The notes under the pieces were generated by a model that did not search any database, was not told the origin of the DNA, and worked only from the letters and a program-made list of their open reading frames with translations. From a virus, in the IMG/VR virus record IMGVR_UViG_3300011416_000037, positions 1 to 23,657 of that record: 23,657 nucleotides of DNA; one strand, given 5' to 3'. A program made the position numbers and the translations under genes. Below, piece after piece: positions 391 through 15,400 of the stretch (positions are counted from its first letter, which is position 1; the number at the start of each line of letters is the position of its first letter).

Positions 391-659
391 TAGGGTAGAT
401 TCCTTTCCCACTCCTCCCACTCTGCCGCAATATTAGGATTCTGCGTTAGAGCGGCTATACGCCTCATAGCTTCATTGTTCGGTAGTGTACCTCCTTCCCA
501 CTTCATAAGCGTACTAGGCGTAGTGCGTAGAATGTTCGCGCACTCTGCCGCGCTGATAATGTTAATGCGTCTCCATACCCGTAGCGGATTCTGTTCTACC
601 GCTAGGCGGTACTCCTCAAGTAGTGTAAGTACCATACTCATTTGTTCATCTCCTGTCAT
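390..659 (-). CDS. Small XRE-like helix-turn-helix protein
   Basis: This 89-aa protein has a central segment, about residues 35-75, that resembles the Cro/CI-type (XRE) helix-turn-helix: ISAAECANILRTTPSTLMKW followed by an EGGTLPNNEAMRRI turn and helix. The W-E-G-G-x-x-P pattern after the recognition helix is typical of that fold. It would be a DNA-binding regulator or a replication accessory protein. Its ATG overlaps the upstream stop as TAATG, so it is translationally coupled to the 133-aa zinc-ribbon gene, and its own stop overlaps the GTG of the next gene. The fold is inferred from pattern alone; no operator can be assigned. Confidence 0.65.
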   Translation of the reverse strand: MTGDEQMSMVLTLLEEYRLAVEQNPLRVWRRINIISAAECANILRTTPSTLMKWEGGTLPNNEAMRRIAALTQNPNIAAEWEEWERNLP

Positions 660-1060
660 TATTTACTAGGGTATCCGATTAGGCTAGCCATCCGTAGTTT
701 TGCGGTAGCTTGTCGCTCTTTAGCTTGTGTTACCGCGCGTAGCTCCACGTCTCGCGGCATAGCTGCTATCTCGTCCGATGCCTCTAGGAAGCTCCGTACC
801 GAGTCTACCATCTGCTGCACGCCTGCTAGGTCTGTATTTAGCGGTATTCGTGCTTGCTCCTCTGCTGATTCTGGTAGCTCCATAGCTACTACGCTTAAAC
901 AGTACGTACAGTAGTATTGCACTACCGATTCAATTTGCCGCTTCCCTCCCTCTATCGGCTCTCGTACCGTTGCTCTAGGTCTAAAGCTGTGCGGCCCTCC
1001 CCCTCTTACCGGGCAGTTAGGGTTATCTGGTTGTACGTGCCTGTACTCTGTATTCGTCAT
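659..1060 (-). CDS. Hypothetical protein with an N-terminal zinc-ribbon-like motif
   Basis: This 133-aa protein has candidate metal ligands in its first half: NCPV near residue 15, a His at about residue 24, and YYCTYC near residue 50. Together these suggest a zinc ribbon. The second half is helical and charged. It is coupled to the helicase gene by an ATGA overlap (1057-1060) and to the HTH gene by TAATG, so all three are probably co-translated. I do not recognise a family. A role in DNA metabolism is inferred only from the helicase neighbour. Confidence 0.65.
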   Translation of the reverse strand: MTNTEYRHVQPDNPNCPVRGGGPHSFRPRATVREPIEGGKRQIESVVQYYCTYCLSVVAMELPESAEEQARIPLNTDLAGVQQMVDSVRSFLEASDEIAAMPRDVELRAVTQAKERQATAKLRMASLIGYPSK

Positions 1061-2703: not shown

Positions 2704-3068
2704 TAGAGTACGTCCCTGCGGGCTATCGAAGCGGCACGGCAAGCCATCCGATACCGGGTAACGGCTCGCGGCTCTTTGTACCCGCGCTTGCCCCGGCTAA
2801 TAGCTCCACCCTTCCGCCCCATAGCGGAGTAGTCGTACTGGTACGCGCCTCTTTCGTGGTACTCCTCGCGCCTGTTGCTCATTAGCACCCGCATACAGGC
2901 TCTACCGCAAGTCTTACGGGGTGAGTACCCCTTGCCTTTAATCGGTATTGGAAAGAGTAGCCCGCATACTACACACTCTCTGCGCGGGCTACTACTCGAT
3001 ACACTGCGCGGGTTAATCGTACCCTTTGCCAGCTTTCCCAATGAATCTAACCCCTTCTGTAAGGCCAC
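2703..3068 (-). CDS. Zinc-finger protein of unknown function
   Basis: This 121-aa basic protein starts with GTG. Residues about 32-58 hold a four-cysteine zinc finger: CVVCGLLF, then CGRACM, that is C-x2-C and C-x3-C separated by about 20 residues. This is the treble-clef-like arrangement common in phage nucleic-acid-binding proteins. The remainder is rich in Arg, Lys and Tyr, consistent with nucleic acid binding. The gene ends in TAATG overlap with the helicase, so the two are probably translated together. A degenerate HNH nuclease was considered, but no HNH His/Asn set is visible after the finger. Confidence 0.7.
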   Translation of the reverse strand: MALQKGLDSLGKLAKGTINPRSVSSSSPRRECVVCGLLFPIPIKGKGYSPRKTCGRACMRVLMSNRREEYHERGAYQYDYSAMGRKGGAISRGKRGYKEPRAVTRYRMACRAASIARRDVL

Positions 3069-3072
3069 CTAA

Positions 3073-3097
3073 TGCCCGTCACAAGGCGTAACGGGCA
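3073..3097 (-). other. Small inverted repeat upstream of the zinc-finger gene
   Basis: TGCCCGT (3073-3079) pairs with ACGGGCA (3091-3097) around an 11-nt loop, just ahead of the GTG start at 3068. There is no run of T after the stem on the minus strand, so it is not a good terminator. It may act on translation or RNA stability. Confidence 0.4.
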
Positions 3098-3117
3098 AAG
3101 GTGAAGCGTACTATTAC

Positions 3118-3438
3118 CTAGCCCTCTACCGTTGGCTGAGCGGCTTCCTGTGCGGCCATTTTCTCCTCCTCTGCGTACTGGTACTCGCGTACCAGCTTGT
3201 CGCGGTCGTCCTTGAGGATGCTTATGATTTCATCCATCTCCTCTATCAGCGGCTCTAGGTCTCGGTATAGGTAGGAAGCTATCGTTACTGCGCTAGTACG
3301 GTATCGCTCTACCTTGCTTACGTTGGTGACCTTTGCGGAGTGTTCACTAGCTCGGTAGTCTACCGTTACCTGTCGCGGCATTACTGGCGTAGGCCAGTGC
3401 CAAAGGGTCTCCCCTATCTCTACTGTGCTTAAGTCCAT
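3118..3438 (-). CDS. Hypothetical protein with helical C-terminus
   Basis: I choose the ATG at 3438, giving 106 aa beginning MDLSTVEIGETLW. It lies 2 nt after the stop of the small membrane protein gene and is preceded by GGGGT. The longer frame starting at 3450 would overlap that gene. The N-terminal half is probably beta-rich. Residues about 60-100 form a charged helix with coiled-coil character and an acidic end. There is no recognisable family. The position, just before the zinc-finger and helicase operon, suggests an early function, but this is inference. Confidence 0.65.
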   Translation of the reverse strand: MDLSTVEIGETLWHWPTPVMPRQVTVDYRASEHSAKVTNVSKVERYRTSAVTIASYLYRDLEPLIEEMDEIISILKDDRDKLVREYQYAEEEKMAAQEAAQPTVEG

Positions 3439-3440
3439 CG

Positions 3441-3578
3441 TTAACCCCATATCCTTATCGCTGTGTAAGCAAGGATGCTAACCGCTGCCAGCGTGACTAC
3501 TGCCCAACCAGTAGCGAACATGCACCCCGCGCCTACTATCGTTTTGTACTCGTCTCTACCATCGTTTGTAGTTTTCAT
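3441..3578 (-). CDS. 45-residue single-pass membrane protein
   Basis: I found this gene by translating the gap between the terminator at 3602 and the next gene. The 45-aa product begins MKTTNDGRDEYKTIVG and ends AYTAIRIWG. A hydrophilic N-terminus of about 12 residues is followed by one hydrophobic segment (about residues 13-41), so it should insert once in the membrane. Its TAA is 2 nt upstream of the next ATG, which supports translational coupling. The ribosome binding site is weak. The function is unknown; small single-pass proteins in phage early regions often interact with host membrane proteins. Confidence 0.6.
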   Translation of the reverse strand: MKTTNDGRDEYKTIVGAGCMFATGWAVVTLAAVSILAYTAIRIWG

Positions 3579-3601
3579 ATTAGCGAGCTACCTACCGGGC
3601 A

Positions 3602-3635
3602 AAATAAAACTAGGGCCGGATTGCTCCGGCCCTAG
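3602..3635 (-). terminator. Strong rho-independent terminator
   Basis: An 11-bp perfect stem (CTAGGGCCGGA at 3610-3620 with TCCGGCCCTAG at 3625-3635) closes a 4-nt loop. On the minus strand it is followed directly by TTTTATTTT (3609-3601). It lies about 28 nt after the stop of the 140-aa gene and would end the transcript begun at the promoter at 4144-4173. Confidence 0.9.
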
Positions 3636-3662
3636 CATGTTGGGTAGGGGTAGGGTACTGAG

Positions 3663-4085
3663 CTAGCCCCTACCCGCCTTCGTAGCGGTAGCCGTAGGAG
3701 CGGGCATCGGGGTAGGCTCGTTAGCCTTCTCCGCTTCGGCCTTAGCCTTTGCCCTAGCCGCCAGTACCTTAGCTTTCTCTGCAAGGTCTCGCGCTCGCTG
3801 TGCTTCCTCCGGGGTAGCCTTGCGAACGTGAATACCGTCCTTACCGCTCGCGTCCCTACCGCCCGTAATCGTGAGATTGTAAGGGATAGTGGCCGCTGCG
3901 CGGTGTAGTTGTAGTGACAAGCTACGGTGTAGCTTCGGGTCTCCGGTAACAATGAATGCTCCCGGTGAATCTTGTAGCTCGGTAACGAATGGTATCCATT
4001 CGTTAATACCCGCGCTGACTTTCTTATTTAGCGTAATAGCCTCGGCTGCTACGCTCTCCTGAATCGTGAAATCGCTAGGCTTCAT
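3663..4085 (-). CDS. Hypothetical protein in its own promoter-terminator unit
   Basis: This 140-aa protein has an N-terminal part (1-90) that looks globular, with SVAAEAITLNKKVSAGINEW and a later GGRDASGKDGIHVRKAT segment. A C-terminal tail (about 90-140) is an Ala/Lys/Glu-rich helix ending in a Pro/Thr/Ala-rich flexible region. I do not recognise a family. The gene stands alone between a near-consensus promoter (4144-4173) and a strong terminator (3602-3635), so it is probably made in large amounts. The leader has a 6-bp hairpin (AGTGGC at 4120-4125 with GCCACT at 4129-4134), and CTAAAC/GTTTAG repeats at 4092-4097 and 4137-4142 flank most of it, next to the GGGG ribosome binding site. That may modulate translation. 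A longer frame on the same strand (3632-3952) is a shadow. Confidence 0.75.
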   Translation of the reverse strand: MKPSDFTIQESVAAEAITLNKKVSAGINEWIPFVTELQDSPGAFIVTGDPKLHRSLSLQLHRAAATIPYNLTITGGRDASGKDGIHVRKATPEEAQRARDLAEKAKVLAARAKAKAEAEKANEPTPMPAPTATATKAGRG

Positions 4086-4143
4086 TCTGGACTAAACCCC
4101 TTTTCTGTGTGTTGGCGTTAGTGGCATTGCCACTCCGTTTAGA

Positions 4144-4173
4144 ATCATATTCTAGGCTCTACTCGATTGTCAA
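4144..4173 (-). promoter_or_regulatory. Near-consensus sigma70/sigmaA-type promoter
   Basis: On the minus strand a perfect -35 TTGACA (4173-4168) and a -10 TATGAT (4149-4144, one mismatch to TATAAT) are separated by 18 bp. Transcription would start near 4137 and run into the 140-aa gene. It is the best promoter I can see in the window. Confidence 0.8.
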
Positions 4174-4250
4174 CCTCTGCGCCGTAACAGGTAGTCAAAG
4201 GCTGCGGCCAGTAGGATAGCGGCTACCCATGCTGCAAGTAATCCAGTCAC
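4170..4250 (-). CDS. Candidate 26-residue membrane miniprotein
   Basis: A GTG at 4250-4248 overlaps the TGA of the 91-aa gene as GTGA and opens a 26-codon frame. The product reads (M)TGLLAAWVAAILLAAAF and then DYLLRRRG: one hydrophobic helix followed by a basic tail, the usual shape of a tiny inner-membrane protein. Its TGA stop lies inside the -35 box of the downstream promoter. Support is the coupled start, the clean membrane topology and codon use like the neighbours. No ribosome binding site of its own is evident, and it could be chance. Confidence 0.45.
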   Translation of the reverse strand: MTGLLAAWVAAILLAAAFDYLLRRRG

Positions 4251-4522
4251 CCGGTACCGCCCTCTGCCTGTTTGCAGAGAATACCGTACAGGGTCTCGGA
4301 TAGCTCGTAAGCGTAGTTAATAGCATCCTCGCTAGTTATGCCGGTGTAGCTCGTTATCTCGCCATCTTCCGCTAGCTCCGCTGCCGCGTCTATCCGGGTA
4401 GCGTCGCTGCTTAATAGCTCGGTACCATCGTACTTTGCTGCTAGCTGGCGGGCATCGTCCGGGCTGAGTAGGTCTAAGGCATCGTATAGGTTAAGTAGTA
4501 TCTTTGCTTCTTTGTCTACCAT
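4247..4522 (-). CDS. Hypothetical acidic protein
   Basis: This 91-aa acidic, largely helical protein begins MVDKEAKILLNLYDALDLLS. Its ATG follows the upstream TAG directly (TAGATG), so it is translated with the 136-aa gene. No motif or metal-binding site is visible and I recognise no family. It is near the end of the operon headed by leader A, downstream of the tRNA. Confidence 0.65.
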   Translation of the reverse strand: MVDKEAKILLNLYDALDLLSPDDARQLAAKYDGTELLSSDATRIDAAAELAEDGEITSYTGITSEDAINYAYELSETLYGILCKQAEGGTG

Positions 4523-4933
4523 CTACACTATCCTTTCCTGTTCTACCCTAAAGGATAGTGCCGGGTGATTCTCGGCCCATCGTTCTAGCTCGCGGTCTAT
4601 CGAATCCCTGTTACCGATAAATACCGCTGCTAGGCTCTCTGAGCCTGCTACGTCGCGACTATAGGCCGTGTAGCCCCATACCTCCCCGAACGCCTTTAGT
4701 AACGCCTCTTGCGTCTCCTGTGCGGTCTCCGGGGTATCTTCGGTAGCGGTCTCCGCTAGCACGGTCTCTAACATGGTTATCCAGCGCGACGTATCGCGGA
4801 TTTCCTTAGCCGTAGGTAGGTAGGTAGTGCCCTCGTCTAAGTGCATAAAATGGCCGCTCTTAAACTCTCGTACTACCGCTTCTAACATTAGTGTTAGAAC
4901 CTCTACCTTGTCTTTGTCGGTATCCTCGGCCAC
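4523..4933 (-). CDS. Hypothetical protein following the tRNA gene
   Basis: This 136-aa protein starts with GTG at 4933, supported by an excellent Shine-Dalgarno AAGGAGG 8 nt upstream. The context GGAGGTACGG resembles the GAGGTACTG box that heads the leader-controlled units. The sequence is acidic and helical, with a Thr/Glu-rich segment near residues 62-75, and no motif I recognise. The strong ribosome binding site makes sense because the tRNA gene lies just upstream, so ribosomes must initiate afresh after tRNA processing. Confidence 0.75.
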   Translation of the reverse strand: MAEDTDKDKVEVLTLMLEAVVREFKSGHFMHLDEGTTYLPTAKEIRDTSRWITMLETVLAETATEDTPETAQETQEALLKAFGEVWGYTAYSRDVAGSESLAAVFIGNRDSIDRELERWAENHPALSFRVEQERIV

Positions 4934-4956
4934 TGGCCGTACCTCCTTTCTGTAGT

Positions 4957-5042
4957 TGGTGCCCCTAACTGGATTTGAACCAGTACCCTATTTCTAGGAC
5001 GGCATCCTAAATGCCGCGTGTCTGCCATTTCACCATAGGGGC
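4957..5042 (-). tRNA. tRNA-Leu, anticodon UAG, with encoded CCA
   Basis: The minus strand gives a complete class II tRNA. The acceptor GCCCCTA pairs with TAGGGGC, and the D-arm is GTG/CAC. The anticodon stem CGGCA/TGCCG has loop TTTAGGA, so the anticodon is TAG. A long variable arm (CCTA/TAGG) follows. The T-arm ACTGG/CCAGT has loop TTCAAAT. Discriminator A and an encoded CCA end the gene at 4957. A long variable arm and the UAG anticodon identify leucine, reading CUA. Phage genes here use CTA very often, so the tRNA probably supplements the host pool. It lies between two genes of one operon and must be cut from the message. Confidence 0.95.
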
Positions 5043-5055
5043 ATAGGTCGTTAGT

Positions 5056-5259
5056 TTATATCGTACCCATTGTTCTTTCGCTACAGGTAGCACACTCGTA
5101 ATACGCAATGTCCTGCCCTGAGCTACTAGACGCCTTAATGCGGTACGTCTCTTTCCACTGGTGCGAGTGAGGCGGGTTAGCTCTGCGCTGTTCACACTCG
5201 CTACAGAGTAACTCGCCTTCTACCGCCTTTTGCTTTTGGCATATGTAGCATTTAGCCAC
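5056..5259 (-). CDS. Small double zinc-ribbon protein
   Basis: I prefer the GTG at 5259 (67 aa, starting MAKCYICQ), because AAGGA sits 8 nt upstream and the same context (AGCACAGTGGCTAAA) precedes the 133-aa gene starting at 8805. The ATG at 5277 in the same frame has no ribosome binding site. Three CxxC pairs are present: CYIC, CSEC and CATC, with His residues in PPHSHQW between. This suggests one or two zinc ribbons. The gene overlaps the end of the upstream zinc-finger gene and is followed at once by the tRNA. The product is probably a nucleic-acid or protein-binding adaptor, but this is inference. Confidence 0.7.
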   Translation of the reverse strand: MAKCYICQKQKAVEGELLCSECEQRRANPPHSHQWKETYRIKASSSSGQDIAYYECATCSERTMGTI

Positions 5260-5470
5260 TGTGCTTATCCTTTTCATGGATACCGAGTGCGTAGGCTATG
5301 GCCGCTTGTGGCACGGAGTAGTCATTAGCTGCTACCCCATATCCGCAAGTAGGACATTCCCCGGCCCAATAGCCCCACGGGTTCGGCCCGATAAGGTATC
5401 GTGCCTTGTCTGCCTTGCTAATCCGGTTCCTACTATGACTTCCGGTAGCTGGCCTCGCATCATTGCTCAT
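5252..5470 (-). CDS. C2H2-type small zinc-finger protein headed by leader A
   Basis: This 72-aa protein has a CPTCG motif near residue 40 followed about 25 residues later by HEKDKH at the C-terminus, giving a C-x2-C ... H-x4-H metal site. The N-terminus is basic (SHSRNRISKADKAR). Initiation uses GAGGTACTG, 5 nt before the ATG. A similar layout, CHACGY then H near the C-terminus, is seen in the 61-aa protein at 8810-8995, so the two may be distant paralogues. The function is unknown; DNA or RNA binding is likely. Confidence 0.7.
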   Translation of the reverse strand: MSNDARPATGSHSRNRISKADKARYLIGPNPWGYWAGECPTCGYGVAANDYSVPQAAIAYALGIHEKDKHSG

Positions 5471-5669
5471 TAGTTCAGTACCTCTTTTTCTTCTGCACTA
5501 GTGCAGACGGTAGAGTCTGGCGCTACCGTCTGAAATGGTGCTAGGCCGCTAACCGGGGAGAGACCTTAGTTAGCGGCCTTGACGGATTTGGAATTGGTAA
5601 CTTGTGTACCGCCCATTACTAGCGGGCAGACATTGTAACCCCCTCCTTTCTATTACCGGGTACCCTTTC
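5471..5669 (-). promoter_or_regulatory. Leader A: hairpin-rich 5' leader
   Basis: This non-coding stretch ends with the GAGGTACTG initiation box (5484-5476). The 16-nt palindrome TCTGCACTAGTGCAGA (5492-5507) lies next to it. CAGACGGTAG (5504-5513) pairs perfectly with CTACCGTCTG (5523-5532). The two hairpins share bases 5504-5507, so only one can form fully at a time. Further upstream AGGCCGCTAAC (5543-5553) pairs with GTTAGCGGCCT (5569-5579), an 11-bp stem. No run of T follows any of these on the minus strand. A regulatory RNA leader is inferred; promoter boxes are not obvious. Confidence 0.6.
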
Positions 5670-5900
5670 CTACTGTCTCGGGTATGGGTTGTTCTCTACC
5701 TCGCAAGCCTCTACCGCTGCTACCTTGCTAGGGTAGTATTCCTGCTCACCTACGGGCTGTATTGGACTCGCGCCTAGTGACTGCTGGTAGGCAGTCCATC
5801 TAGCGCGGGTAGGTGGCCCATCCACGTAGACGGTATAAACGGCCTTGTTACCGTTTGCCCGCCATGCTTCCGGGTCGTTACTGAGCTTTAGCCATTTCAT
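5670..5900 (-). CDS. Hypothetical protein, last gene of unit B
   Basis: This 76-aa protein begins MKWLKLSNDPEAW and has a probable beta-strand segment AVYTVYVDGPP. It has several Trp, Tyr and Pro residues but no metal-binding motif. The ATG overlaps the upstream TGA (ATGA), so it is the fourth coupled gene after leader B. I recognise no family. Confidence 0.65.
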   Translation of the reverse strand: MKWLKLSNDPEAWRANGNKAVYTVYVDGPPTRARWTAYQQSLGASPIQPVGEQEYYPSKVAAVEACEVENNPYPRQ

Positions 5901-6121
5901 ACGGTTGCCGCCTCTGGTACATGCCGCGTACCATCGTAGTTAAACCCTCTCGGGCTACGGGTTAGCGTTGCCTCTTGGTCTATCAGTAACGTGTAGGTAG
6001 CATGTGCTAGGTGATACTCGCAAGCATAGGTAGGCAAAACTGCCGCGCCCGGTCGTACCAGCTTGTAGGTAGCTATGGCGTACTTCTTGTGCTGCCATAA
6101 GCACTCCCTAGGGTAGCTCAT
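5897..6121 (-). CDS. Hypothetical protein, third gene of unit B
   Basis: This 74-aa protein contains CEYHLAHATYTL in its middle and one more Cys near residue 7, so a metal site with Cys and His ligands is possible but incomplete. Both ends are coupled by ATGA overlaps to neighbours. No family recognised. Confidence 0.65.
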   Translation of the reverse strand: MSYPRECLWQHKKYAIATYKLVRPGAAVLPTYACEYHLAHATYTLLIDQEATLTRSPRGFNYDGTRHVPEAATV

Positions 6122-6306
6122 ATCTTAACTCCCTTGCTCTCGTTGTAGCGTCGCTGGTAGTCCGCTTCGTACCAGCTAGTAGACGCTCTGCATTGCTTAC
6201 AGGTTGTGCGGGTAGTGTCGTCATTGCCAGCAAGGTTAGACGGTCTACCGCACGCCATTAGTAACAGGTAGGTGCCATACCCTTTCGGTAGGTAGTGAAA
6301 CTTCAT
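6118..6306 (-). CDS. Small CGR/CxxC zinc-ribbon phage protein
   Basis: The start at 6306 gives 62 aa and overlaps the upstream TGA as ATGA; the longer open frame to 6366 has no support. The protein carries MACGRPS near residue 18 and TCKQCRAS near residue 36. This spaced pair of Cys motifs, with a Thr-rich segment between, is common in tiny phage proteins found in many genomes. It probably binds one zinc ion. Function is not established. Confidence 0.75.
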   Translation of the reverse strand: MKFHYLPKGYGTYLLLMACGRPSNLAGNDDTTRTTCKQCRASTSWYEADYQRRYNESKGVKI

Positions 6307-6638
6307 ACCGGCATCGCTACCGGGCATGGGCCGCAATTCTCGTTTCCGTAATCTCGGCAGTAGCACGTATACTGCCCGTCTCGCTCGTAACAGTAAAACT
6401 TAGTACCGGCTACGTTATGAATGTTGGCGCATGGCCCATGCTTGACCCGCTCTACAAAGGCTATTTGAGCTTCTGTAGTGGCAAGGAACATAGCGGACGG
6501 CAGACAATCGAGACAAGCTGTATAGCTCGCTCGCTTGTATTCATCGTTGCTATCGCTCTCGCCCTCTGCGGCCTTCGGGTACCAGACTACTTTATAGCTG
6601 GCCCGTACATTCTTGTGTAGCTCGCAATTGTTAAACAT
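6303..6638 (-). CDS. Cys-rich hypothetical protein headed by leader B
   Basis: This 111-aa protein has at least eight cysteines. ACLDC lies mid-protein, and the last 45 residues hold CANIH, FYCYERDGQYTCYCRDY and ENCGPCPV. The pattern suggests at least one zinc site and maybe two. Initiation uses GAGGTACTG, 4 nt before ATG. It is the first gene of a four-gene coupled unit (6638 to 5670). The family is not recognised; binding to nucleic acid or a host protein is a guess. Confidence 0.7.
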   Translation of the reverse strand: MFNNCELHKNVRASYKVVWYPKAAEGESDSNDEYKRASYTACLDCLPSAMFLATTEAQIAFVERVKHGPCANIHNVAGTKFYCYERDGQYTCYCRDYGNENCGPCPVAMPV

Positions 6639-7102
6639 TGTTCAGTACCTCTTTCTCTGCTATCGCAGACGGTAGGGCTACTGGCGGTCTGGCCCCCTAT
6701 GGCGCTCCTATAGGGCATATTCCAGACGTTGTACGTATGGCGGCTGTTTCGCTAGGAGAGCTACCCCTAATAGCCATACTGCTTGCCAGTAGTCCTACCG
6801 TCTGCGCCAGTACCTAAGCACTGGACAGACTAGAGCTAATGCGTAGCTCTGTCGCTAAAGGCGATTCGGTTGCAAAAGGGGTCTCGCCTTTCGGCTTCTG
6901 GCATTATGCCGGGTGCCCCGTACCGTTTCGTTCCATGCCGGTACTACTCGTTCCCTGTAATAGCGGGTTCAGTACCAGCGGCTGTTAGTCGCCTGTCGTC
7001 TACCTGTACTACTCTACGCCTGTTTCCCTAGTATGCAAGCGTATCAAGTGTGAAGATTTGGGGCCGAAATTATGTCAAGTCCGGCCCCGGCCCCGGTAGG
7101 AT
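6639..7102 (-). ncRNA. Leader B and upstream structured, gene-free region
   Basis: This 464-bp stretch has no supportable gene. Near the downstream end a 21-bp stem (6665-6685 with 6785-6805, one mismatch) encloses two hairpins. One is GTCTGG/CCAGAC (6687-6692 with 6722-6727), which contains CCCTAT/ATAGGG; the other is GTATGGC/GCCATAC (6735-6741 with 6773-6779). This gives a three-way junction. TCTGC/GCAGA (6656-6660 with 6665-6669) is an alternative partner next to the GAGGTACTG box. Upstream are AGTGC-TTAG-GTACT (6822-6809), a 7-bp stem of AGAGCTA and TAGCTCT, a GCC-GAAA-GGC tetraloop hairpin and a GGGGCCG/CGGCCCC stem (7060-7066 with 7082-7088). A long regulatory leader or a processed RNA is inferred. 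Confidence 0.55.
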
Positions 7103-7462
7103 TCAGGAAGGAAGCTGTAACCCCCATGCCTCTACTACGTTAAGTACATAGGTGCGCTCGCGCTGGCTTAGGTTGAGTGTATTACCGTGCCTATCGGTAC
7201 CGCCTAGTATGACGGCATTACCGGCTATGTAGTCTTGCTCTAATACCCGGTACTCATCCCATGTACTAACAATGTCCATAGCGAGCCTGTTAACAGGTAG
7301 TTCTTGTAGCTTCCCTTCCTCGTTGATAAAGACTGTTACGCCTTGCCGGGTAGGGAACGCCTCGATATAGCCCCCTACTGCCGCCTGTAGCGCGTCTAGT
7401 GCGCCGTCAAACTCGCTAACGGTGTAGGTATCGCCTACTACGCTGATTTGGAGACCCTTCAT
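7103..7462 (-). CDS. DUF3846 family protein
   Basis: This 119-aa protein matches what I know of the phage DUF3846 family: VGGYIE (29-34), then VFINEEGKLQELPVNR (about 44-59), then a GNAVILGG segment (81-88). The NEEGK and P-x-NR signatures are characteristic. The biochemical role of the family is unknown; members occur in phage and plasmid accessory regions. It stands alone between leader C and the structured region upstream of leader B. Initiation uses GAGGTACTG, 5 nt before the ATG. Confidence 0.8.
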   Translation of the reverse strand: MKGLQISVVGDTYTVSEFDGALDALQAAVGGYIEAFPTRQGVTVFINEEGKLQELPVNRLAMDIVSTWDEYRVLEQDYIAGNAVILGGTDRHGNTLNLSQRERTYVLNVVEAWGLQLPS

Positions 7463-7550
7463 TTTACCAGTACCTCGTATCTTTGCTAGGCTCTCACCTG
7501 CCTTCTGCCGGTAGGTTAGTACCGGCAGTAGGTAGGGTGCGAATCTACTT
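7463..7550 (-). promoter_or_regulatory. Leader C (family 1 leader RNA)
   Basis: The 83-bp core (7468-7550) differs at one base from leader D (8327-8409). It has a 9-bp perfect stem, CTGCCGGTA (7505-7513) with TACCGGCAG (7520-7528), and a 6-nt loop. A small hairpin, on the coding strand AGGT-GAGA-GCCT (7499-7488), has a GNRA loop. The GAGGTACTG box follows. The single difference from D changes a C-G pair to a U-G pair in the GNRA hairpin, so pairing is kept. The element begins at the TAG stop of the upstream gene and ends at the next ATG. Confidence 0.75.
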
Positions 7551-7754
7551 AATGCTTACTAACCTCCCTCCGTAGACGATACCGCTAGCGTACCAGCTAT
7601 GCGGCTTGGGGTAGTGCGGCCCCTCTAGAGCTACGCTACCGTCCTTAACGTCTGGCCCGAATGGGCCGGGTTGATATACGTATACCTCCCGCCCCTCTGC
7701 AAGCCACTGCTTAAGCTCCTTTTTCGTCTTTGGATTTCCTTCTACGTATGCCAT
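7545..7754 (-). CDS. Small conserved-type phage protein
   Basis: This 69-aa protein begins MAYVEGNPKTKKELKQWLAE and ends with a Pro/Gly/Trp-rich segment that includes VALEGPHYPKPHSWYA followed by GRLVSIK. I recall this 'ALEGPHYPxPHxWYA' pattern from small uncharacterised phage proteins. The ATG directly follows the TAG of the SprT-like gene (TAGATG). Its own TAG lies within the start of leader C. Function unknown. Confidence 0.75.
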   Translation of the reverse strand: MAYVEGNPKTKKELKQWLAEGREVYVYQPGPFGPDVKDGSVALEGPHYPKPHSWYASGIVYGGRLVSIK

Positions 7755-8147
7755 CTAACTAGCCTCTTTTCTTTGCATGGCTACCCACATACCCCGTACT
7801 AGCGGCTCTAGCTCGGCTGTGAATGCCTTGTGCCTCTTACTATGGTCAAAGTACCGGGCATGTGCAAGTTCGTGCGCTAGCGTGTCCAGTACCTGAAACT
7901 CGTCTAGCGGTTCCGGGTACCATTTGATACCCGATATCCGCGCCTGATATGCTCGCACTTTGTACCGTAGCGTAATGCTGATTCGCCTATCGCTTAGATA
8001 GAAATGCCCATAGGCCGAATACTGATACGGCCTACGCTTGTGCTCTAGAATACGTAGGTCTAGCCCGTATTCCTCGGATAGCGTAAACGCTATAGCGTCT
8101 AGCTCTAGGCTAAACGCTACATCGTCCGGGTGTATGTCGCCATTCAT
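7755..8147 (-). CDS. SprT/WLM-like zinc metallopeptidase domain protein
   Basis: The start at 8147 (MNGDIHPDD) gives 130 aa and overlaps the upstream TGA as ATGA; the open frame to 8297 is a shadow of the preceding small gene. The zincin motif HELAH is at residues 92-96, followed by ARYFDHSKRHKAF, which provides further His ligands. This layout fits the SprT/YgjP/WLM group of small metallopeptidases. Related cellular proteins cleave DNA-bound or misfolded proteins, but phage members are uncharacterised. It is the middle gene of unit D. Confidence 0.85.
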   Translation of the reverse strand: MNGDIHPDDVAFSLELDAIAFTLSEEYGLDLRILEHKRRPYQYSAYGHFYLSDRRISITLRYKVRAYQARISGIKWYPEPLDEFQVLDTLAHELAHARYFDHSKRHKAFTAELEPLVRGMWVAMQRKEAS

Positions 8148-8323
8148 GCGAACAAGCTCGCTTTTCCCTTGCGCCCGTACATAGACATGTGAGTGCCGCA
8201 TTCGTCGCATACCATCCGGGTAGTATCGCTCGTAATGTCGTAGGAGTAAGTAGAATCGTCTTTGTACTGCCCGCCGCAAGAGCAATAAGCCGTACATATC
8301 TGCGCCACGAATCGAATAGCCAT
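8144..8323 (-). CDS. 59-residue zinc-ribbon protein headed by leader D
   Basis: I translated this gene by hand from the ATG at 8323, which has a GAGGTACTG box 3 nt upstream. The product is 59 aa and has two Cys pairs: YCSCGGQY near residue 15 and VCDECGTHM near residue 40, a compact zinc ribbon. The basic tail reads GRKGKASLFA. The TGA overlaps the ATG of the SprT-like gene (ATGA), so both are made together. The zinc ribbon may supply a substrate- or DNA-binding function for the metallopeptidase; in some SprT proteins a zinc ribbon is fused in cis. That link is inference. Confidence 0.75.
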   Translation of the reverse strand: MAIRFVAQICTAYCSCGGQYKDDSTYSYDITSDTTRMVCDECGTHMSMYGRKGKASLFA

Positions 8324-8409
8324 TTTCAGTACCTCGTATCTTTGCTAGGCTCTCGCCTGCCTTCTGCCGGTAGGTTAGTACCGGCAGTAGGTAGGGTGCG
8401 AATCTACTT
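8324..8409 (-). promoter_or_regulatory. Leader D (family 1 leader RNA)
   Basis: This is the near-identical copy of leader C (83-bp core at 8327-8409, one difference). Stem CTGCCGGTA (8364-8372) pairs with TACCGGCAG (8379-8387). A small hairpin with AGGC-GAGA-GCCT (8358-8347, coding strand) follows, then the GAGGTACTG box. It begins with the TAG of the 133-aa gene and heads the zinc-ribbon/SprT unit. Confidence 0.75.
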
Positions 8410-8805
8410 TAGTTGACTAGTGAAATGGTTTACCGCTTCCTGCCGCTGCTCGTCTGTGGCTTTGGTGTACTCAACATGGGTAACCTTGTAATACTGGCTC
8501 CCTTTGGCACTGGTAACCAGCTTAAAGCGGCCCGTTAGGTCTATCTCCTTTCCTACTTCGTAGCCTAGCGCGCTGTACTTAGCCCCCTCTAGGAATTGGC
8601 TAAGCATACCCGCCATACTGCTACCGCCGTAGTTAATGGAGTCGTACTGCACAGAGAAGTAATGCCGATTCTCTAGAGCGTCCATAGCCACTACGTAGGC
8701 TCGGTAGTTGTAGCGGGTAGGCTTCCGAAAGCCTGCCTGCTCATAGGCTACCTCTGCCTTGCTCTCCACTGATTCAATCCAAACCCTGCACGTCTCTTTA
8801 GCCAC
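8404..8805 (-). CDS. Hypothetical protein, second gene of unit E
   Basis: This 133-aa protein starts with GTG at 8805 in the context AGCACAGTGGCTAAA, preceded by AAGGAGAGG. It begins MAKETCRVWIESVESKAEVA. Aromatic and polar residues alternate in the middle, suggesting a beta-rich fold, and a segment reads EVGKEIDLTGRFKLVTSAKG. I recognise no family. It follows the small zinc-finger gene by 4 nt, and its TAG is inside leader D. Confidence 0.7.
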   Translation of the reverse strand: MAKETCRVWIESVESKAEVAYEQAGFRKPTRYNYRAYVVAMDALENRHYFSVQYDSINYGGSSMAGMLSQFLEGAKYSALGYEVGKEIDLTGRFKLVTSAKGSQYYKVTHVEYTKATDEQRQEAVNHFTSQLK

Positions 8806-8809
8806 TGTG

Positions 8810-8995
8810 CTAACCCCTCTCCTTGCGCTGCATGTACTCGATATGCTTTCGCATATCTTCTTTCAGGTTAAAGGCTACCGTACTGCCCATTGCGTACCCG
8901 CAAGCATGGCAGACGGCCTTAAATCCTGCCAGACGCCTACCCGCCTCTGCTGGCGTCTCTACAAAGTCGTAACCGTTCGTTACTGTGTGATTCAT
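8810..8995 (-). CDS. Small zinc-finger protein headed by leader E
   Basis: This 61-aa protein contains VCHACGYAMGS near residue 28 and RKHIEYMQRKE near the C-terminus, that is C-x2-C plus a downstream His, with a second His (within CHAC) available. It resembles the 72-aa protein at 5252-5470 in size, position as first gene after a leader, and CxxCGY-type motif. The ATG is 4 nt after GAGGTACTG. The product is probably a zinc-binding adaptor of unknown function. Confidence 0.7.
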   Translation of the reverse strand: MNHTVTNGYDFVETPAEAGRRLAGFKAVCHACGYAMGSTVAFNLKEDMRKHIEYMQRKERG

Positions 8996-9080
8996 TTTTC
9001 AGTACCTCTTTCTCTACTAGGCTCTCGCCTGCCCTCTGCCAGCTATCACTAGCTGGCAGTAGGTAGGGTGCGAATCTACT
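8996..9080 (-). promoter_or_regulatory. Leader E (family 1 leader RNA, diverged copy)
   Basis: This leader aligns with C and D over about 81 bp. The main stem is different but still perfect: CTGCCAGCT (9036-9044) pairs with AGCTGGCAG (9051-9059) around a 6-nt loop, where C and D have CTGCCGGTA/TACCGGCAG. The GNRA hairpin AGGC-GAGA-GCCT (9030-9019, coding strand) and the GAGGTACTG box are conserved. Four positions change together on both sides of the stem, direct evidence for a selected RNA structure. Confidence 0.75.
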
Positions 9081-9321
9081 TTGAAAACTCCATTTTGTTA
9101 GCAAGGTTCCAAACCTTAGTAGCCATCGCGGTAGCTGCCGCGCCAGTACGAGCAAAGGCGATACGGTGCGTACCGTGTCCCTTTGCTTCGTCTCTAATCA
9201 GTTCCCATGCCCCACGCTCTTTCGTCTCGAATAGGAATACCAGTGTTTCAATACCGGCGCTACTGATTCGGTAGAGTGCGTAAGTCTTGGTAGGGGCCGT
9301 CTCTATAAGTTCGTATGCCAT
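9076..9321 (-). CDS. Hypothetical protein, single gene of unit F
   Basis: This 81-aa protein begins MAYELIETAPTKTYALYRIS and has an Ala-rich helix near the C-terminus (TGAAATAMATKVWNLANK). The first half is probably a small beta-sheet. The ATG lies 2 nt after GAGGTACTG. The TAG stop is the first part of leader E. No family recognised. Confidence 0.7.
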   Translation of the reverse strand: MAYELIETAPTKTYALYRISSAGIETLVFLFETKERGAWELIRDEAKGHGTHRIAFARTGAAATAMATKVWNLANKMEFSK

Positions 9322-9480
9322 TTCAGTACCTCTTTCTCTGCGTTATTCGCAGAGAGTAGGGACGGATTAGGGCGGGTGACTATCAGTATGCTCTAGCCGT
9401 AGCTAGTACCGTAGTTCCACTGGTACCCTATCCGTCCCTACTCTCTGCGCCAGTGCCGTAGCACTAGCACAGATTTTCCG
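9322..9480 (-). promoter_or_regulatory. Leader F: long stem-loop leader
   Basis: A long inverted repeat (9349-9372 with 9426-9448) forms 19 contiguous base pairs, a single-base bulge and 4 more pairs. It encloses CTAGC-cgta-GCTAG and TACC/GGTA (9407-9410 with 9422-9425), so again a branched structure. Its downstream arm can instead pair with the ribosome binding site side: TCTCTGC (9335-9341) with GCAGAGA (9349-9355). On the coding strand the element begins with AGTGC-UACG-GCACU (9465-9452), a 5-bp stem with a C(UACG)G tetraloop. GAGGTACTG (9332-9324) precedes the ATG. The architecture is that of leader B. Confidence 0.6.
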
Positions 9481-9690
9481 CGTTCCGCTTTATAGCGGTG
9501 CCCGCTAGCGTTTCTTCTAGCGGCCCTCCTTTCGGAAGGGTAGCAGACCTTTGCATCTGCCTATCGGGTGATTATCACTTGTGTTTGCCGTAGCCCGGTC
9601 GGGTCGGTCGTCTCGGGTGATTTTCCCCCCGCGTCCACTGTGCGGGTTGTTCTCTGTGGGTCTCGACTTATTAAGAATAGCAGTACCGCT
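9481..9690 (-). other. Hairpin-rich intergenic stretch upstream of leader F
   Basis: No gene is supported here. An open frame at 9517-9708 needs a TTG start and lacks the CTA/GTA codon bias of the real genes. On the minus strand I see CCGCTAG/CTAGCGG, CCGCT-ATAA-AGCGG, CCTTCC-GAAA-GGAGGG, GCAGA/TCTGC and CCCGC/GCGGG stems in sequence. The stretch may be part of a longer RNA that includes leader F. The stem list is by eye, without an energy calculation. Confidence 0.4.
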
Positions 9691-9922
9691 AGTAAGTGCA
9701 AGCGGCAATAGTGCCTTTTCTACCTCTTTTTACTAGTTTTATACCTCTATTTGCTGCGTCTATAGTTAGACCTACTGCGGCTCGGGCAATACTGCCCCGG
9801 CCTACGTTATGTAGTGGATGGCCTAGCACCTTTTTTCGGTACTGTCTAGTTGACCGATTATTTGCCAAATAATGCGTCAAGTAGCGTATCTGAAATCGCG
9901 CTGTGCGCCCGGTAGCAATCAA
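9689..9922 (-). CDS. Possible small basic protein, start uncertain
   Basis: A 77-codon frame with a TTG at 9922 as the only outer start encodes a very basic product. The C-terminal two thirds, including NVGRGSIARAAVGLTIDAAN and then GIKLVKRGRK, look protein-like and use CTA and GTA codons as in neighbouring genes. No ribosome binding site is visible ahead of the TTG; a GTG inside the frame is another option. It lies between the HNH gene and the structured region. Coding status is uncertain. Confidence 0.35.
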   Translation of the reverse strand: MIATGRTARFQIRYLTHYLANNRSTRQYRKKVLGHPLHNVGRGSIARAAVGLTIDAANRGIKLVKRGRKGTIAACTY

Positions 9923-9949
9923 AGTAGTGCTACGCTATGGTTGAACCTA

Positions 9950-10000
9950 TAAAACGCTCTGAGCGGCCTTACACGGCCTTACAGAGGCATTGGCGTTTTA
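9950..10000 (-). terminator. Imperfect stem-loop with 10-bp tandem repeat after the HNH gene
   Basis: TAAAACGC (9950-9957) pairs with GCGTTTTA (9993-10000). CTCTG (9957-9961) and CAGAG (9982-9986) can extend it with a bulge. The TAA stop of the HNH gene is in the stem, and on the minus strand the stem ends in TTTTA, so it may be a weak terminator. The loop holds two head-to-tail copies of CGGCCTTACA (9964-9973 and 9974-9983). Confidence 0.45.
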
Positions 10001-10393
10001 CTGGCCCCGCCTAGCGTACTCCTCTAGCGGTATGACAATTTGAATACCTATATTCTCTACCGTGTCATTATCACTAGCGGCTATGTGTACTACCCTCTCC
10101 TCTGCCCGTAGCGGTCTGCCTAGTACCTCCTCTGCTACTAGTGTATGTTTCCAGTGCCAGTAACCATTTTTCATTACCTGAGTGTATCCGTTACTAGCCT
10201 GCTTTTCATAGCCTTCTGGTATATCTGCTTTCCGCCTCTGCCATATGACACTAGCGGCCGCACTGTTATGAGTAGTGCAGTATTTTAACTTTAGTCCGTT
10301 ACTGCGTACCGCCTGTAGCTCGGTACAGTCCGGCCACTGGCACGTACCCGGCGCTGTAGGTGGCTTTGCTCGGCTCTTTCGTTTTCTCGCCAT
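9998..10393 (-). CDS. HNH endonuclease-like protein with zinc finger
   Basis: This 131-aa protein has a basic N-terminus (MARKRKSRAK). A zinc finger follows: Cys18, Cys23, Cys39 and His42 (C-x4-C-x15-C-x2-H). An HNH_3-like segment comes next: HTLVAEEVLGRPL (from His83), VVHI (His103) and ENI (Asn114). In typical members the central motif is HH followed by a Gly/Asn-rich turn. Here only one His is left (VVHIAASDND), so catalytic activity is uncertain. Phage HNH proteins are often free-standing homing endonucleases. It stands alone between the late terminator (10464-10491) and a stem-loop at its own stop. Confidence 0.8.
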   Translation of the reverse strand: MARKRKSRAKPPTAPGTCQWPDCTELQAVRSNGLKLKYCTTHNSAAASVIWQRRKADIPEGYEKQASNGYTQVMKNGYWHWKHTLVAEEVLGRPLRAEERVVHIAASDNDTVENIGIQIVIPLEEYARRGQ

Positions 10394-10463
10394 GCCTTGA
10401 ACCCTCGATTTTGATTAGGTTGGGTTAACCATATCTGGCCGCGACTCACCCGGCAAGCCGCGC

Positions 10464-10491
10464 AAAAAGATACCGGGCATGGTGCCCGGTA
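10464..10491 (-). terminator. Rho-independent terminator ending the late operon
   Basis: A 9-bp perfect stem, TACCGGGCA (10471-10479) with TGCCCGGTA (10483-10491), has a 3-nt loop. On the minus strand it is followed by TCTTTTT (10470-10464). It lies about 65 nt after the holin-like gene and would stop transcription of the whole tail-lysis operon. A second small stem, CCCGG/CCGGG near 10542-10555, sits right at the holin stop. Confidence 0.85.
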
Positions 10492-10555
10492 CCCATTCTG
10501 CCCCATTAAGGAGCGCGAGAAATGCCGCCTGCCGGGGTCTACCCGGCTAACCGGG

Positions 10556-10750
10556 CTATCCTGCTAGCTGCGACCGATAATAGGCTAGTCCGGCCATCAG
10601 GCTTGTACTAGCGATACCGCATCCAAATGCCGCCCATTGTAGTACCTCTACACTAGCTGCAATGTTGACGCCTACAATACTCGTTTGGATAGCTCCTAAC
10701 CCGGTGGCTATCGCGCCTACTAGGATAACTGCCCGGTCTGTCTTAGCCAT
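10556..10750 (-). CDS. Holin-like protein with two membrane segments
   Basis: This 64-aa protein has two hydrophobic segments, about residues 7-30 (AVILVGAIATGLGAIQTSIV) and 38-57 (LQWAAFGCGIASTSLMAGLA), with short charged ends. Size, topology and the position 8 nt overlapping the end of the amidase gene fit a small class II holin, which permeabilises the inner membrane so the amidase can reach the wall. Holins lack sequence signatures, so the call rests on topology and neighbours. The 53-aa membrane protein upstream of the amidase is the rival candidate. Confidence 0.7.
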   Translation of the reverse strand: MAKTDRAVILVGAIATGLGAIQTSIVGVNIAASVEVLQWAAFGCGIASTSLMAGLAYYRSQLAG

Positions 10751-11657
10751 CGTCTGATACTTCCTCTAGCTTTCCTGTAAACCTATACACTCCCTCTAGT
10801 GAGCCATTAGTAGGAAACCCCTCCTCTACCCATTCCCAGCTACGTACCTGTTCATTGCGTAGCCCTACCGCAAAGCTGTACCCGCGCTCTGCCGCCGCGA
10901 ATAGTGCAGAGTCGCCAGTAAGCCTAACCGTAGGAGTGTCGTAGCTGATTGGCCCGGTATGGACTACCGTACCCGGTGGACACCATTCGATAATGTCCGC
11001 TGTAGGCACAATATCTAGCCCATTGCGGATTACAATATTAGCGAGTGCTCCGAATAGTAGTTTTTCCTCTGGGGTCATAGCGTCATCTCCTCCGGTGTCT
11101 CCGGCCATTAGCCGTAGCCATGCATTGTGATACCTATCACTAGCGCAAGCTGTAGGGCTACTGCCATACATTACCGCTAGTTGCTTATGTTGAAGGATAT
11201 TAGAATTAGGTACGTATACCTTACCGTTCCATTCGCTAATATCCCTTATTAGGTGAATGAAATTATCCTCTTGCGCCTCGTCTAGCGGCTCTGTAGTCCA
11301 TGCTGGCCCGCCCCCCTCGGATTCCATACTAGCTGTACTACAGTTAGCCCCTCTGCTACCGCTAGTCCATGTACTAGCTGGCAAAGGGTACATCTGGATT
11401 AGGTAGCCACCGTACTTAGCCTTTCGATTGATAAACTGGCACGATGCCGCCGCGTAGGGAGTGTAGGTATTACTACCGGGTATCTTTTGCTCGCTTAAAA
11501 ATCGGTCTGGTATGCCGTCTTGTGTTGCTGATTCTTCTCCTACTATCGAGTGACACGCGAACCCGTCTACGGTGTTAGGTTGTGTGTATACCTTGTCTGG
11601 TACTCCGTCTATTCGTTTGGCCCATTTAACCCAACCATCAGGTGTTATATCTACCAT
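10743..11657 (-). CDS. N-acetylmuramoyl-L-alanine amidase (endolysin)
   Basis: This 304-aa protein has an amidase_2/PGRP-type catalytic domain in residues about 1-185. Likely zinc ligands are His36 (FACHSIVG), His157 (ILQHKQL) and Cys171 (SPTACASDRYHNAW); the SPTAC segment is the typical end of this domain. It would cut the amide bond between N-acetylmuramic acid and L-alanine in peptidoglycan at the end of infection. Residues 190-215 form an acidic linker helix. The last 90 residues are probably a cell-wall-binding or accessory domain I cannot name. There is no signal peptide, so a holin is needed. Membrane protein genes lie on both sides. Confidence 0.9.
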   Translation of the reverse strand: MVDITPDGWVKWAKRIDGVPDKVYTQPNTVDGFACHSIVGEESATQDGIPDRFLSEQKIPGSNTYTPYAAASCQFINRKAKYGGYLIQMYPLPASTWTSGSRGANCSTASMESEGGGPAWTTEPLDEAQEDNFIHLIRDISEWNGKVYVPNSNILQHKQLAVMYGSSPTACASDRYHNAWLRLMAGDTGGDDAMTPEEKLLFGALANIVIRNGLDIVPTADIIEWCPPGTVVHTGPISYDTPTVRLTGDSALFAAAERGYSFAVGLRNEQVRSWEWVEEGFPTNGSLEGVYRFTGKLEEVSDDG

Positions 11658-12416: not shown

Positions 12417-15400
12417 TAGATAGGTACCACACTTGTAGCGGTTTGTAGCGTCTTTACGATTGCCTCTAGGTCTAGTAGCTCGCTACTGGTAAAGGTTATC
12501 GTATTGCGCCCGGTCAACGGTTGCCCCTGAGAGTCTATCAGATATGCGGTTATGTCTTTTTCTAGGAAGTCCGAATTAAACGGCCCGCCGAGTGCGACTG
12601 TTCTACTAACGCCATTTATAGTAACTGTGATACCGGGTGAGCTAGGGCCGCTACCCTCGAATATCCCAAACTCTAGCGCGTGTGTGTGCGCTGGCGTAGT
12701 GTGTGTATGGCTCGATACTGTATGGGTATGTGCCGATTCGCTATCGTTAGTACCGCCGCTAAAGCTGTGCGTATGATTCGGGGTAGTGTGAGTATGTGTA
12801 GACGCTGCCCCATACGTCCACGTCTGAGTATCTTCTAGTGGCGCATACGGTACAAGAAATAGTAGATTTTGTGTAAAGCTACCTGCTTCATCTAGTTTAG
12901 TCTCTACCGACCATGATTGACCACCTCCACCCGGCCCTAGTGGATGCGTATGCGGTACGCTATTGGATGCAGTAACGGCATTCTGTACGTATGTTGCATT
13001 TGTGTTTTCTGTATGCCCGTGGCTAGTAGATTCAAGGGTACCGCCTGTCCACCATTCATCCCCGGATAGTATCACTGTCCACATTAGGTGTCGGTGGCTA
13101 CCCTCTGCGCCAGACGTACTACCGCCCCCGCTCGCTACTGTACCGCCGCTAAAGCCGTGCGAGTGGCTAGACCCGCCTGAGCTAGTAACCCCGCCGCCGC
13201 TGCCAGACGTAGAGCCACCGCCGCTAGCTACCCCGCTAGCGTTAGTGCGTACTGCTTTTAGCGATACTGATAGTTCCGCCTTGTGTAGATACTGTACGTT
13301 ATTCCATAGGTCTACAATTAGTGTAACATCGTGTGTAGCGTCAATGCTGCGCCGCTCGCTAAAGGAATCTACGAACGTATACGCCTTTTGTGCGGTCTTA
13401 ACTGCGTAGCTACTGGCATACTCGTCTACCTGTTGCCTAGACTCCGCATCCGGGTCTCGGTCTACCGTGCTTACTATAATGTCCCATGCGTCCGCGCCCG
13501 ATGCCTCAAATGAGCGTGTGAAACTCATTACATACATTAGCTCGTCTACTGTCTTACCGTCTCCGTGATAGACTACTCGTACTCTATCTCCTACCTCTAG
13601 TAGCGCGACTCCTGCCGCGTAATGCTCTAATCCTACGGGCAGTACCCGGTACGTCTTAGCCGTCTGTTTCCCTCTTTGCAGTGCGGTAAGAGTGTAGTCA
13701 TATAGTGTATTAGCTGCGCGGGTTACCTCTAGGCTAACGGGTGACAGTGGCACTACCTCTTTAATGCTTAGCACTCGCTCGCGTTGTCCATGCGCTGCTA
13801 TGCTATTCTCATCGGCTAGGTAGTAGTAAATCTGGTTATCCGGCCCTATGCTCGTTAGTATATGGTAGGGTGCCTGCTCTAGTGTTTTCTCTGCTAATAC
13901 AATAGCGTCTAAATCGAACGTCTCCGATGCTACCGCCGTCTGTTGCTCCACTACCAGTAGTACCGCTGTTCTGTCATTGGCTACTAGTGTATATTCTAGC
14001 TCTAGGTAGTTCCACCCGCTAACAAGCGTCTGCGTAATCTCGGTTTGCTCGGCCCCGGACGCGCCCCCGGTGCCGCGCAGACGCATTTTAACGGCTTTCC
14101 CTACCTCTGTGCCCGCTACGGATAGGTAGACCCTTGCCGCGAATGTCCGGCCAGCGGTGGCCCCGGTAAGTGCTGCCGTGTAGGTTGCGCTATACTCGGT
14201 ACCGGCAGTTCTAGAGACCCTACCTACTGACTGCGCGTGTTTGCTAGCGGCCACCCCTCCTTGCACTCTGGCAATAGTAGCATTAGTTACAGACCAACCA
14301 GTAGTGTTAGTCTCAAAGGAAGGATTAGCACATAACTGTATTGGCCTAGTTGCCATCCTTAAATCTAGTGCGTTGATTCCTTCCCCTTGCCCTAGCGGTA
14401 TAAGGTAGTTCCATAAGTCCGCCGATTCCTCGAATAGTGCCGCCTCTGATATTGGATATACGGCCATGTTAGGGTACGCCTGCCGTACATTCTGCAACAC
14501 TATAGACCGCTGTACGCCTGCGGCAGTAACGTCTATCTCTTTAGTTACGTTGTTTTCTCGTACATGGATACCGGCAGTTCGCGCTAGCTCTGCTAGTCCC
14601 TCGAACCTCGATAGGCCGTCCATCCGGGCTGTAAATCCGTAGTTCGTGATTGTATCTACTGTACCTACTGCCCATCCGGTAGTAGCCAACAGGGTAGCCG
14701 CTGCCGATGCTACGCTAACATTCGCAAACTGCATACCGAGTAATGTATTCTTCCAAACTAGTTGACGGGCTATGCTCTGTCCTGTTACCTCTAGTATGTA
14801 CTCTTGATTCTTAGTATTCCGCCACTCTAGACCGTCTATGATGCCCCGGAAGATTAGCCCCTCCCCCTCCCTGTAAAACCGTAGCTCGTACCCTTGCTCT
14901 AGGTACTGCGCTTTCTCATTGTTCGCGGCTAGCTCTCCCCTAAAGTCTCCTATTTTATCTAGTGCTAGCGTGTAATCGAGTGCCAGAATTGGCATAGGGC
15001 CGAATGGTAGTTTTTCTCCTGCCGCCGTGTACGCCTCTGCCATAACTCTACGTAGCTGCGGTGCCGCCGTAAACTCTAGCGCCTCTGCCTCTGTAACGTT
15101 TACTCGTAGGTTGTCTGTATCTGTCTTGTCGTCAAATGTAGCTAGTGCGTCTGCCTCGGTAATGTTTACCGCTAGGTTCTCCGCCTCTCCTTGTGCGGTT
15201 GCTAGCTCCTCTACCTCTGTAATGTTCACTGCCGCGCTATCTGTATCGTCTCCGCTAGCGGTATAATCCTCTACCTCTGTTACCTTGACGCCCGCGCTAT
15301 CTGCGTCTGCCTTATCATCTATTGTAACAAGTGCTTCCACCTCGGTTATCTTAACGCCTGCGTTCTCCGCATCCGCCTTATCGTCTTGGGTAACGATAGA

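Follow-up and report, generated by a model that had tools for sequence, protein, structure and literature searches.

Among phage repeats placed at gene starts, the SAS of Cluster K mycobacteriophages are over-conserved ribosome binding site (RBS) motifs, which are repeated before non-structural genes and carry an inverted repeat upstream in about half of the cases (PMC3203893). They follow the 13-bp consensus GGGATAGGAGCCC with two deviations at most, lie nearly all in one orientation and sometimes include the upstream stop codon; the ESAS repeats are 17 bp long and imperfect, with a common consensus and a spacer of mostly 4-13 bp (PMC3203893). Since departures from the ESAS consensus generally do not keep RNA pairing, the hairpin idea was set aside and these repeats were read as DNA sites (PMC3203893), and in Adephagia the ESAS were described as a SigA-like promoter combined with an inverted repeat (PMC11373665). 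A second, unrelated start-associated set is present in Cluster EF Microbacterium phages (PMC7302621). The put RNAs of HK022, about 70 nt long and composed of two stem-loops, belong to early transcripts (PMC9378689), and in the early region of T7 the RNase III sites are hairpins located between cistrons of the polycistronic mRNA (PMC4858673).

The window analysed here, the whole stretch of 23,657 nucleotides of virus record IMGVR_UViG_3300011416_000037, belongs to a metagenome-derived genome of a tailed phage. The phage is known from metagenomes only; the nearest named-phage relatives of its head protein are Arthrobacter phages (48%), and the nearest relatives of its tape measure protein are two contigs. 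Contig L004 is 100% identical to window positions 1-11487, and the record IMGVR_UViG_3300012041_000063 overlaps both window ends, giving a circular map of about 38.3 kb, calculated from these overlaps. The main genes lie together on the minus strand of the window, along which tail genes are followed by amidase/endolysin-like, holin-like and HNH endonuclease genes, a small-gene stretch, a tRNA-Leu and, beyond it, a helicase gene, a primase-like gene and head genes. The small-gene stretch harbours, on the minus strand, all six of the leaders described below, and gene order suggests that the leader-bearing genes are probably early. The tRNA-Leu (4957-5042, minus strand, anticodon UAG) decodes CTA, and because CTA is the top leucine codon of the phage (45 per 1000), this tRNA appears to serve the phage's own codon usage. 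The minus strand also contains a strong sigma-70-like promoter match (TTGACA-18-TATGAT, 4173-4144, 11/12) in the gap upstream of the gene at 4085, and degenerate tandem repeats with NVTE-like motifs (e.g. SENLAVNVTEAE) at 15058-15640, within a 1492-aa tail protein. A secreted transglycosylase-like protein with TPTATP-type repeats, a style frequent in Chloroflexota surface proteins, is encoded at 8244-8840 of contig L053 and gives a possible hint to the host.

The original prediction had described three copies of one leader, C, D and E, and these were recovered at 7468-7550, 8327-8409 and 8999/9000-9081, all on the minus strand, with similarity spanning about 83 nt (within-record E-values 5e-39 and 3e-19). 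They belong to a set of six, as leaders A (gene start 5470), B (6638) and F (9321) carry the same RBS together with different and longer inverted repeats; A, B and F are referred to here as class 1 and C, D and E as class 2. Because the leaders are also present in the identical contig L004, an assembly artefact of the window is unlikely. The leaders and the genes adjoining them are the following:

5468..5600, minus strand: leader A (class 1), with an 11-bp hairpin (5579-5543), a 10-bp hairpin CAGACGGTAG/CTACCGTCTG (5532-5504), GAGGTACTG (5484-5476) and the ATG (5470) of a 72-aa CxxC protein
6636..6850, minus strand: leader B (class 1), with a 22-nt inverted repeat with one mismatch (6806-6785/6685-6664), small hairpins, GAGGTACTG (6651-6643) and the ATG (6638) of a 111-aa protein
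7103..7462, minus strand: DUF3846 gene downstream of leader C
7460..7550, minus strand: leader C (class 2), with AAGTAG including the upstream TAG (7547-7545), a conserved 27-nt block, hairpin I (7532-7501), GAGA-loop hairpin II (7499-7488), GAGGTACTG (7476-7468) and the ATG (7462-7460) of the DUF3846 gene
7545..7754, minus strand: 69-aa gene, the AAG-TAG end of which is the start of leader C
8144..8323, minus strand: 59-aa gene downstream of leader D, with a weak Zn-ribbon match
8321..8409, minus strand: leader D (class 2), layout as in C, with hairpin I (8391-8360), hairpin II (8358-8347), GAGGTACTG (8335-8327) and the ATG (8323-8321) of the 59-aa Zn-ribbon-like protein
8404..8805, minus strand: 133-aa gene, the AAG-TAG end of which is the start of leader D
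8810..8995, minus strand: 61-aa gene (CxxC) downstream of leader E
8993..9081, minus strand: leader E (class 2), layout as in C with another stem tip, with hairpin I (9063-9032), hairpin II (9030-9019), GAGGTACTG (9008-9000) and the ATG (8995-8993) of the 61-aa CxxC protein
9076..9321, minus strand: 81-aa gene downstream of leader F, the AAG-TAG end of which is the start of leader E
9319..9480, minus strand: leader F (class 1), with hairpin H1 with a C(UACG)G loop, a perfect 20-bp inverted repeat (9449-9430/9367-9348), hairpin H3 (9354-9336), GAGGTACTG (9332-9324) and the ATG (9321) of the 81-aa protein

The class-2 leaders fill the entire spacer between the UAG stop of one gene and the RBS of the next, and on the minus strand they run AAGUAG, AUUCGCACCCUACCUA, hairpin I, a single C, hairpin II, a purine-rich stretch, GAGGUACUG and AUG. 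AAG-UAG represents the final codon (K) and the stop of the upstream gene in 3/3 cases; the UAG occupies an identical position in all three, hairpin I begins 12 nt after it, and the Shine-Dalgarno (SD) sequence follows 70-71 nt after its first base. Hairpin I consists of 9 bp, an A.A mismatch and 3 further bp, and hairpin II (AGGY-GAGA-GCCU) of a 4-bp stem with a GNRA loop; one unpaired base lies between them, and with the 5' block they amount to about 70 nt. Read-through of the stop codon was considered for these leaders and rejected, as the frame after the UAG closes at differing places. A repeat bounded exactly by stop and start codons, with only 1 of 83 bases different between C and D and with unrelated flanking genes (the upstream proteins of 69, 133 and 81 aa are mutually unrelated), might also have arisen by recent duplication or cassette-like spread of low-function intergenic sequence, that is, by mobile repeats inserting exactly between genes. 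However, the 69-aa protein is matched along its full length by a homologue from Pseudomonas phage Lucjan that ends at nearly the same point and is not followed by this leader; leader C thus abuts a natural gene end and the repeat has not truncated the gene. The six leaders moreover fall into two sequence classes with the same RBS and a strong stem, and pairing is kept where the stem tip is altered. Hence, cassette-like spread is regarded as very unlikely.

All six leaders have the motif (AAA)GAGGTACTG in common, and the extended RBS GAGGUACUG is invariant. The window contains exactly six instances of GAGGTACTG, all on the minus strand and 2-5 nt before the ATG of leaders A-F, and the motif was absent from the remainder of the phage genome; when one mismatch was allowed, 23 matches were obtained against 6.8 expected and a maximum of 14 in 100 shuffles. 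The ACTG past the GAGGT core is invariant in 6/6 leaders, so that conservation exceeds pairing with 16S rRNA. Class-1 leaders are preceded by non-coding gaps of about 200-670 nt. Their arms have CAGA..GUAG in common and recur as UCUG...CGCAGA...UCUGCG...CGCAGA, and leaders B and F differ by paired changes within the arm (CAGACGGUAG/CUACCGUCUG vs CAGAGAGUAG/CUACUCUCUG). The non-coding gap before leader F contains a run of small perfect hairpins (9481-9720, minus strand, folding z -3.0), possibly a further structured RNA judging from the predicted folding, and, at about 9858-9880 on the same strand, an operator-like 17-bp palindrome ATTATTTGGCAAATAAT just after TTGACG.

Comparison of the three class-2 copies confirmed that the sole change between C and D turns a C-G pair adjoining the GAGA loop into U-G. 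The central stem was likewise found paired in C and D as well as in E, although only three positions are changed on both sides (columns 28, 30 and 31) and not four as had been proposed, column 29 being G in all copies. In the two-helix structure, 48/48 cells are standard pairs; both partners are altered in three pairs and a single partner in two, the latter remaining paired via G-U. D and E diverge at 12 of the 14 tip positions of hairpin I (columns 28-41); outside the tip only 4 of 68 positions are affected (Fisher p 2e-9), none of them among the first 27. Because the differences are concentrated in this way, the pattern of substitutions suggests that the stem tip was probably swapped as one block for another palindrome and not changed by independent compensatory mutations; the three two-sided changes would then count as one event at most, and C and D, being near-identical, are hardly independent. 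When random 14-mers of the window were placed in the tip, the four outer pairs formed in 0.5% of cases under Watson-Crick rules and in 2.2% when G-U was admitted, and 23/500 column shuffles reached the observed pairing score. The evidence for selection for complementarity in stem I is therefore fair but not overwhelming.

The folding z-scores of the leaders (A -5.3, B -6.75, C -2.4, D -3.8, E -4.1 and F -8.4), together with stems that stay paired despite sequence change, support the part of the original prediction that concerns a selected inverted-repeat structure upstream of the gene starts. In stretches of equal length (90 nt), the six leaders had z-scores of -1.4 to -4.4, and the mean for 49 other gene starts was -0.64 (sd 1.5). 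It had further been proposed that TACCT of the conserved 5' block pairs with AGGTA of the RBS; this pairing comprises only 5 bp and gains no support, as the leaders do not stand out from the 49 other genes in the predicted accessibility of the SD. With an SD neither more nor less accessible than elsewhere, neither its concealment by a hairpin or by TACCT nor a special opening is supported. An argument for RNA is that all leaders lie on the transcribed strand immediately ahead of gene starts. Their GAGA and C(UACG)G loops belong to RNA tetraloop types known for their stability (GNRA and UNCG, respectively), and in the sense-strand helices G-U exceeds A-C by 6:1; this is a small number, but together with the loops it leans towards a sense RNA.

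In five of the six leaders, the folds of the antisense strand are at least as good as those of the sense strand, as expected of any palindrome, which leaves a DNA palindrome compatible with the data. The inverted repeats might accordingly act at the DNA level, as regulator binding sites or promoter parts before each small transcription unit, in the way in which the ESAS have been interpreted from their lost pairing (PMC3203893) and from their association with SigA-like promoters (PMC11373665), and the long non-coding gaps before A, B and F could house promoters. Contrary to this expectation, no sigma-70-like promoter was detected in the leaders on the minus strand, in a scan that did not extend to unusual sigma factors. 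The conserved block of C, D and E ends at the upstream stop codon and leaves no conserved -35 beyond it, which makes a promoter that has such an element less likely; a protein-binding site should keep its sequence, whereas the tip changed at 12/14 positions with pairing kept. A role as DNA elements is considered rather unlikely. The leaders are probably selected and probably act on the mRNA.

The same features determine how the leaders relate to the mycobacteriophage repeats. GAGGTACTG resembles the SAS in being repeated in one orientation a few nucleotides before gene starts (6 exact copies, 2-5 nt) and in its conservation beyond 16S rRNA pairing, but it differs from GGGATAGGAGCCC and does not fit the 13-bp consensus with up to two deviations. 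Unlike in ESAS, the arms measure 9-22 bp with spacers of 6-99 and have no consensus across the classes, pairing is kept in 48/48 cells despite the changed tip, and the minus strand of the leaders lacks a sigma-70-like site. As the layout is alike, the sequence features deviate and pairing is kept, the leaders are a variant of the SAS/ESAS kind and not a member of it.

Searches for relatives yielded no homologue. In IMG/VR, the exact class-2 5' block, GARAAAGAGGTACTGAA, CTGC-N-GCAGAGAAAGAGGT and GGCAGANGGCAGGNGAGAGCC picked up either this phage itself or isolated, scattered hits that lack the leader arrangement, and relatives sought by protein (DUF3846, tape measure, amidase and helicase) were the same phage or distant phages without the leader. 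The nearest tail relative, L015, matches in tail genes only and is uninformative on the leaders. A covariance model of C, D and E produced no credible match, and hence no further homologues with covariation, in 31 sources or 12 whole records; leaders B (18.6 bits) and A (17.8 bits) were scored by it, which we attribute mostly to the shared RBS. A weak outside match (L005 9860-9944, 18.9 bits, E about 0.1 over 429 kb) is an intercistronic hairpin of an unrelated phage, which begins immediately behind a UAG stop and is closely followed by a DUF3846 gene; it was ascribed to chance in view of its low score, its different hairpin and the finding that other DUF3846 genes have no similar structure or only short upstream gaps. 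Consistent with the original statement that the RNA could not be matched to a known class, only the tRNA reached the curated cut-off in Rfam 15, the leaders giving weak chance matches. Among known phages, DNA comparison detected the 69-aa gene alone. Lucjan (Abidjanvirus), which shares this gene, also separates its small genes by spacers of 80-130 nt; a repeated AAGAAAYGGAGAA RBS closes these spacers and some of them contain hairpins, but they have no sequence match to the leaders and their folding is not unusual (z -0.1 to -1.7). The Lucjan spacers (L070 6174-7511), with their common TGCCTTTTGC and AAGAAAYGGAGAA RBS motifs, represent another start-associated repeat set. The leaders are real and repeated; the claim of strong evidence for an RNA structure, on the other hand, was too strong, given about one tip-replacement event in one phage, the lack of covarying homologues and an antisense strand that folds too, and a single phage does not justify speaking of a firmly established new class of RNA.

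Several leaders have more than one predicted fold. For leaders F and B, a three-way junction and a chain of three consecutive hairpins have nearly equal predicted energies (-81.6 vs -82.9 kcal/mol in F and -91.3 vs -88.4 kcal/mol in B), and leader A can form one or the other of two hairpins (-19.9 and -16.9 kcal/mol). In class 2, the UAG stop is predicted to pair with a CUA beyond hairpin II as an alternative to a free hairpin II; the former is favoured in C (-31.1 vs -28.0) and the latter in D (-27.1 vs -29.5) and E (-30.7 vs -32.3). On the basis of these predictions the leaders might be bistable RNA switches, in which, for class 2, the fold could be determined by a ribosome stopping at the UAG, linking termination to initiation at the next gene, a proposal that we consider improbable.

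With two hairpins separated by one unpaired base within about 70 nt, leaders C, D and E resemble the HK022 put RNAs, and a cis-acting antiterminator that modifies RNA polymerase for read-through of the operon can be envisaged. The sigma-70 scan gave no promoter near these intercistronic leaders. However, put elements are located downstream of early promoters; the leaders lie between genes, in three copies each fused to an RBS, and no sequence relation was apparent. Hairpin II is a simple 4-bp GNRA stem, a simpler structure than those of put, and the minus strand of the region has only one strong intrinsic terminator (3636-3609). The leaders match no Rfam family, although put itself may not be in Rfam. 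An antiterminator of this type is therefore thought to be highly unlikely.

We favour, at a probability of roughly one half, the explanation that the six leaders constitute one phage-specific start-leader module which acts on the mRNA of a probably early gene set at the level of translation, processing or stability. Its position, its repetition, the shared RBS and the complementarity kept across the tip change are observed directly. A narrower form of this explanation is that the leaders are RNase III-type processing sites, which, as in T7, would cut the mRNA into mono- and dicistronic pieces. The intercistronic stems of 12 to 22 bp and the placement of hairpins between cistrons of a putatively early polycistronic mRNA agree with such a function. 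Long perfect stems are nevertheless confined to B and F, and stem I of C, D and E (9 + 3 bp) is short for an RNase III substrate; the leaders also differ from the T7 sites in their repeated extended RBS. RNase III processing as the specific function is thus judged to have a low probability.

In the start-leader module that we propose, the six leaders would be copies or variants of one element, distributed along a minus-strand operon whose small genes are probably early. Each is predicted to place a stable hairpin, or a longer fold with branches, immediately 5' of the invariant GAGGUACUG; class 2 occupies the exact spacer from UAG to AUG, and class 1 follows long non-coding gaps. The hairpins would form in the polycistronic mRNA and may insulate the RBS of each cistron from upstream RNA. 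They may also provide a common control point, either through RNase cutting and end protection or through binding of one host or phage factor, and as an outcome the genes would be expressed as a set.

The start-associated repeats of mycobacteriophages have been known since 2011 without a known function. The same layout in an unrelated phage, with pairing kept amid sequence change, makes an explanation at the RNA level directly testable. The leader set described here looks like a home-grown way of tuning small early genes together, and it suggests that phages may repeatedly invent shared leader modules to run their sets of small genes.
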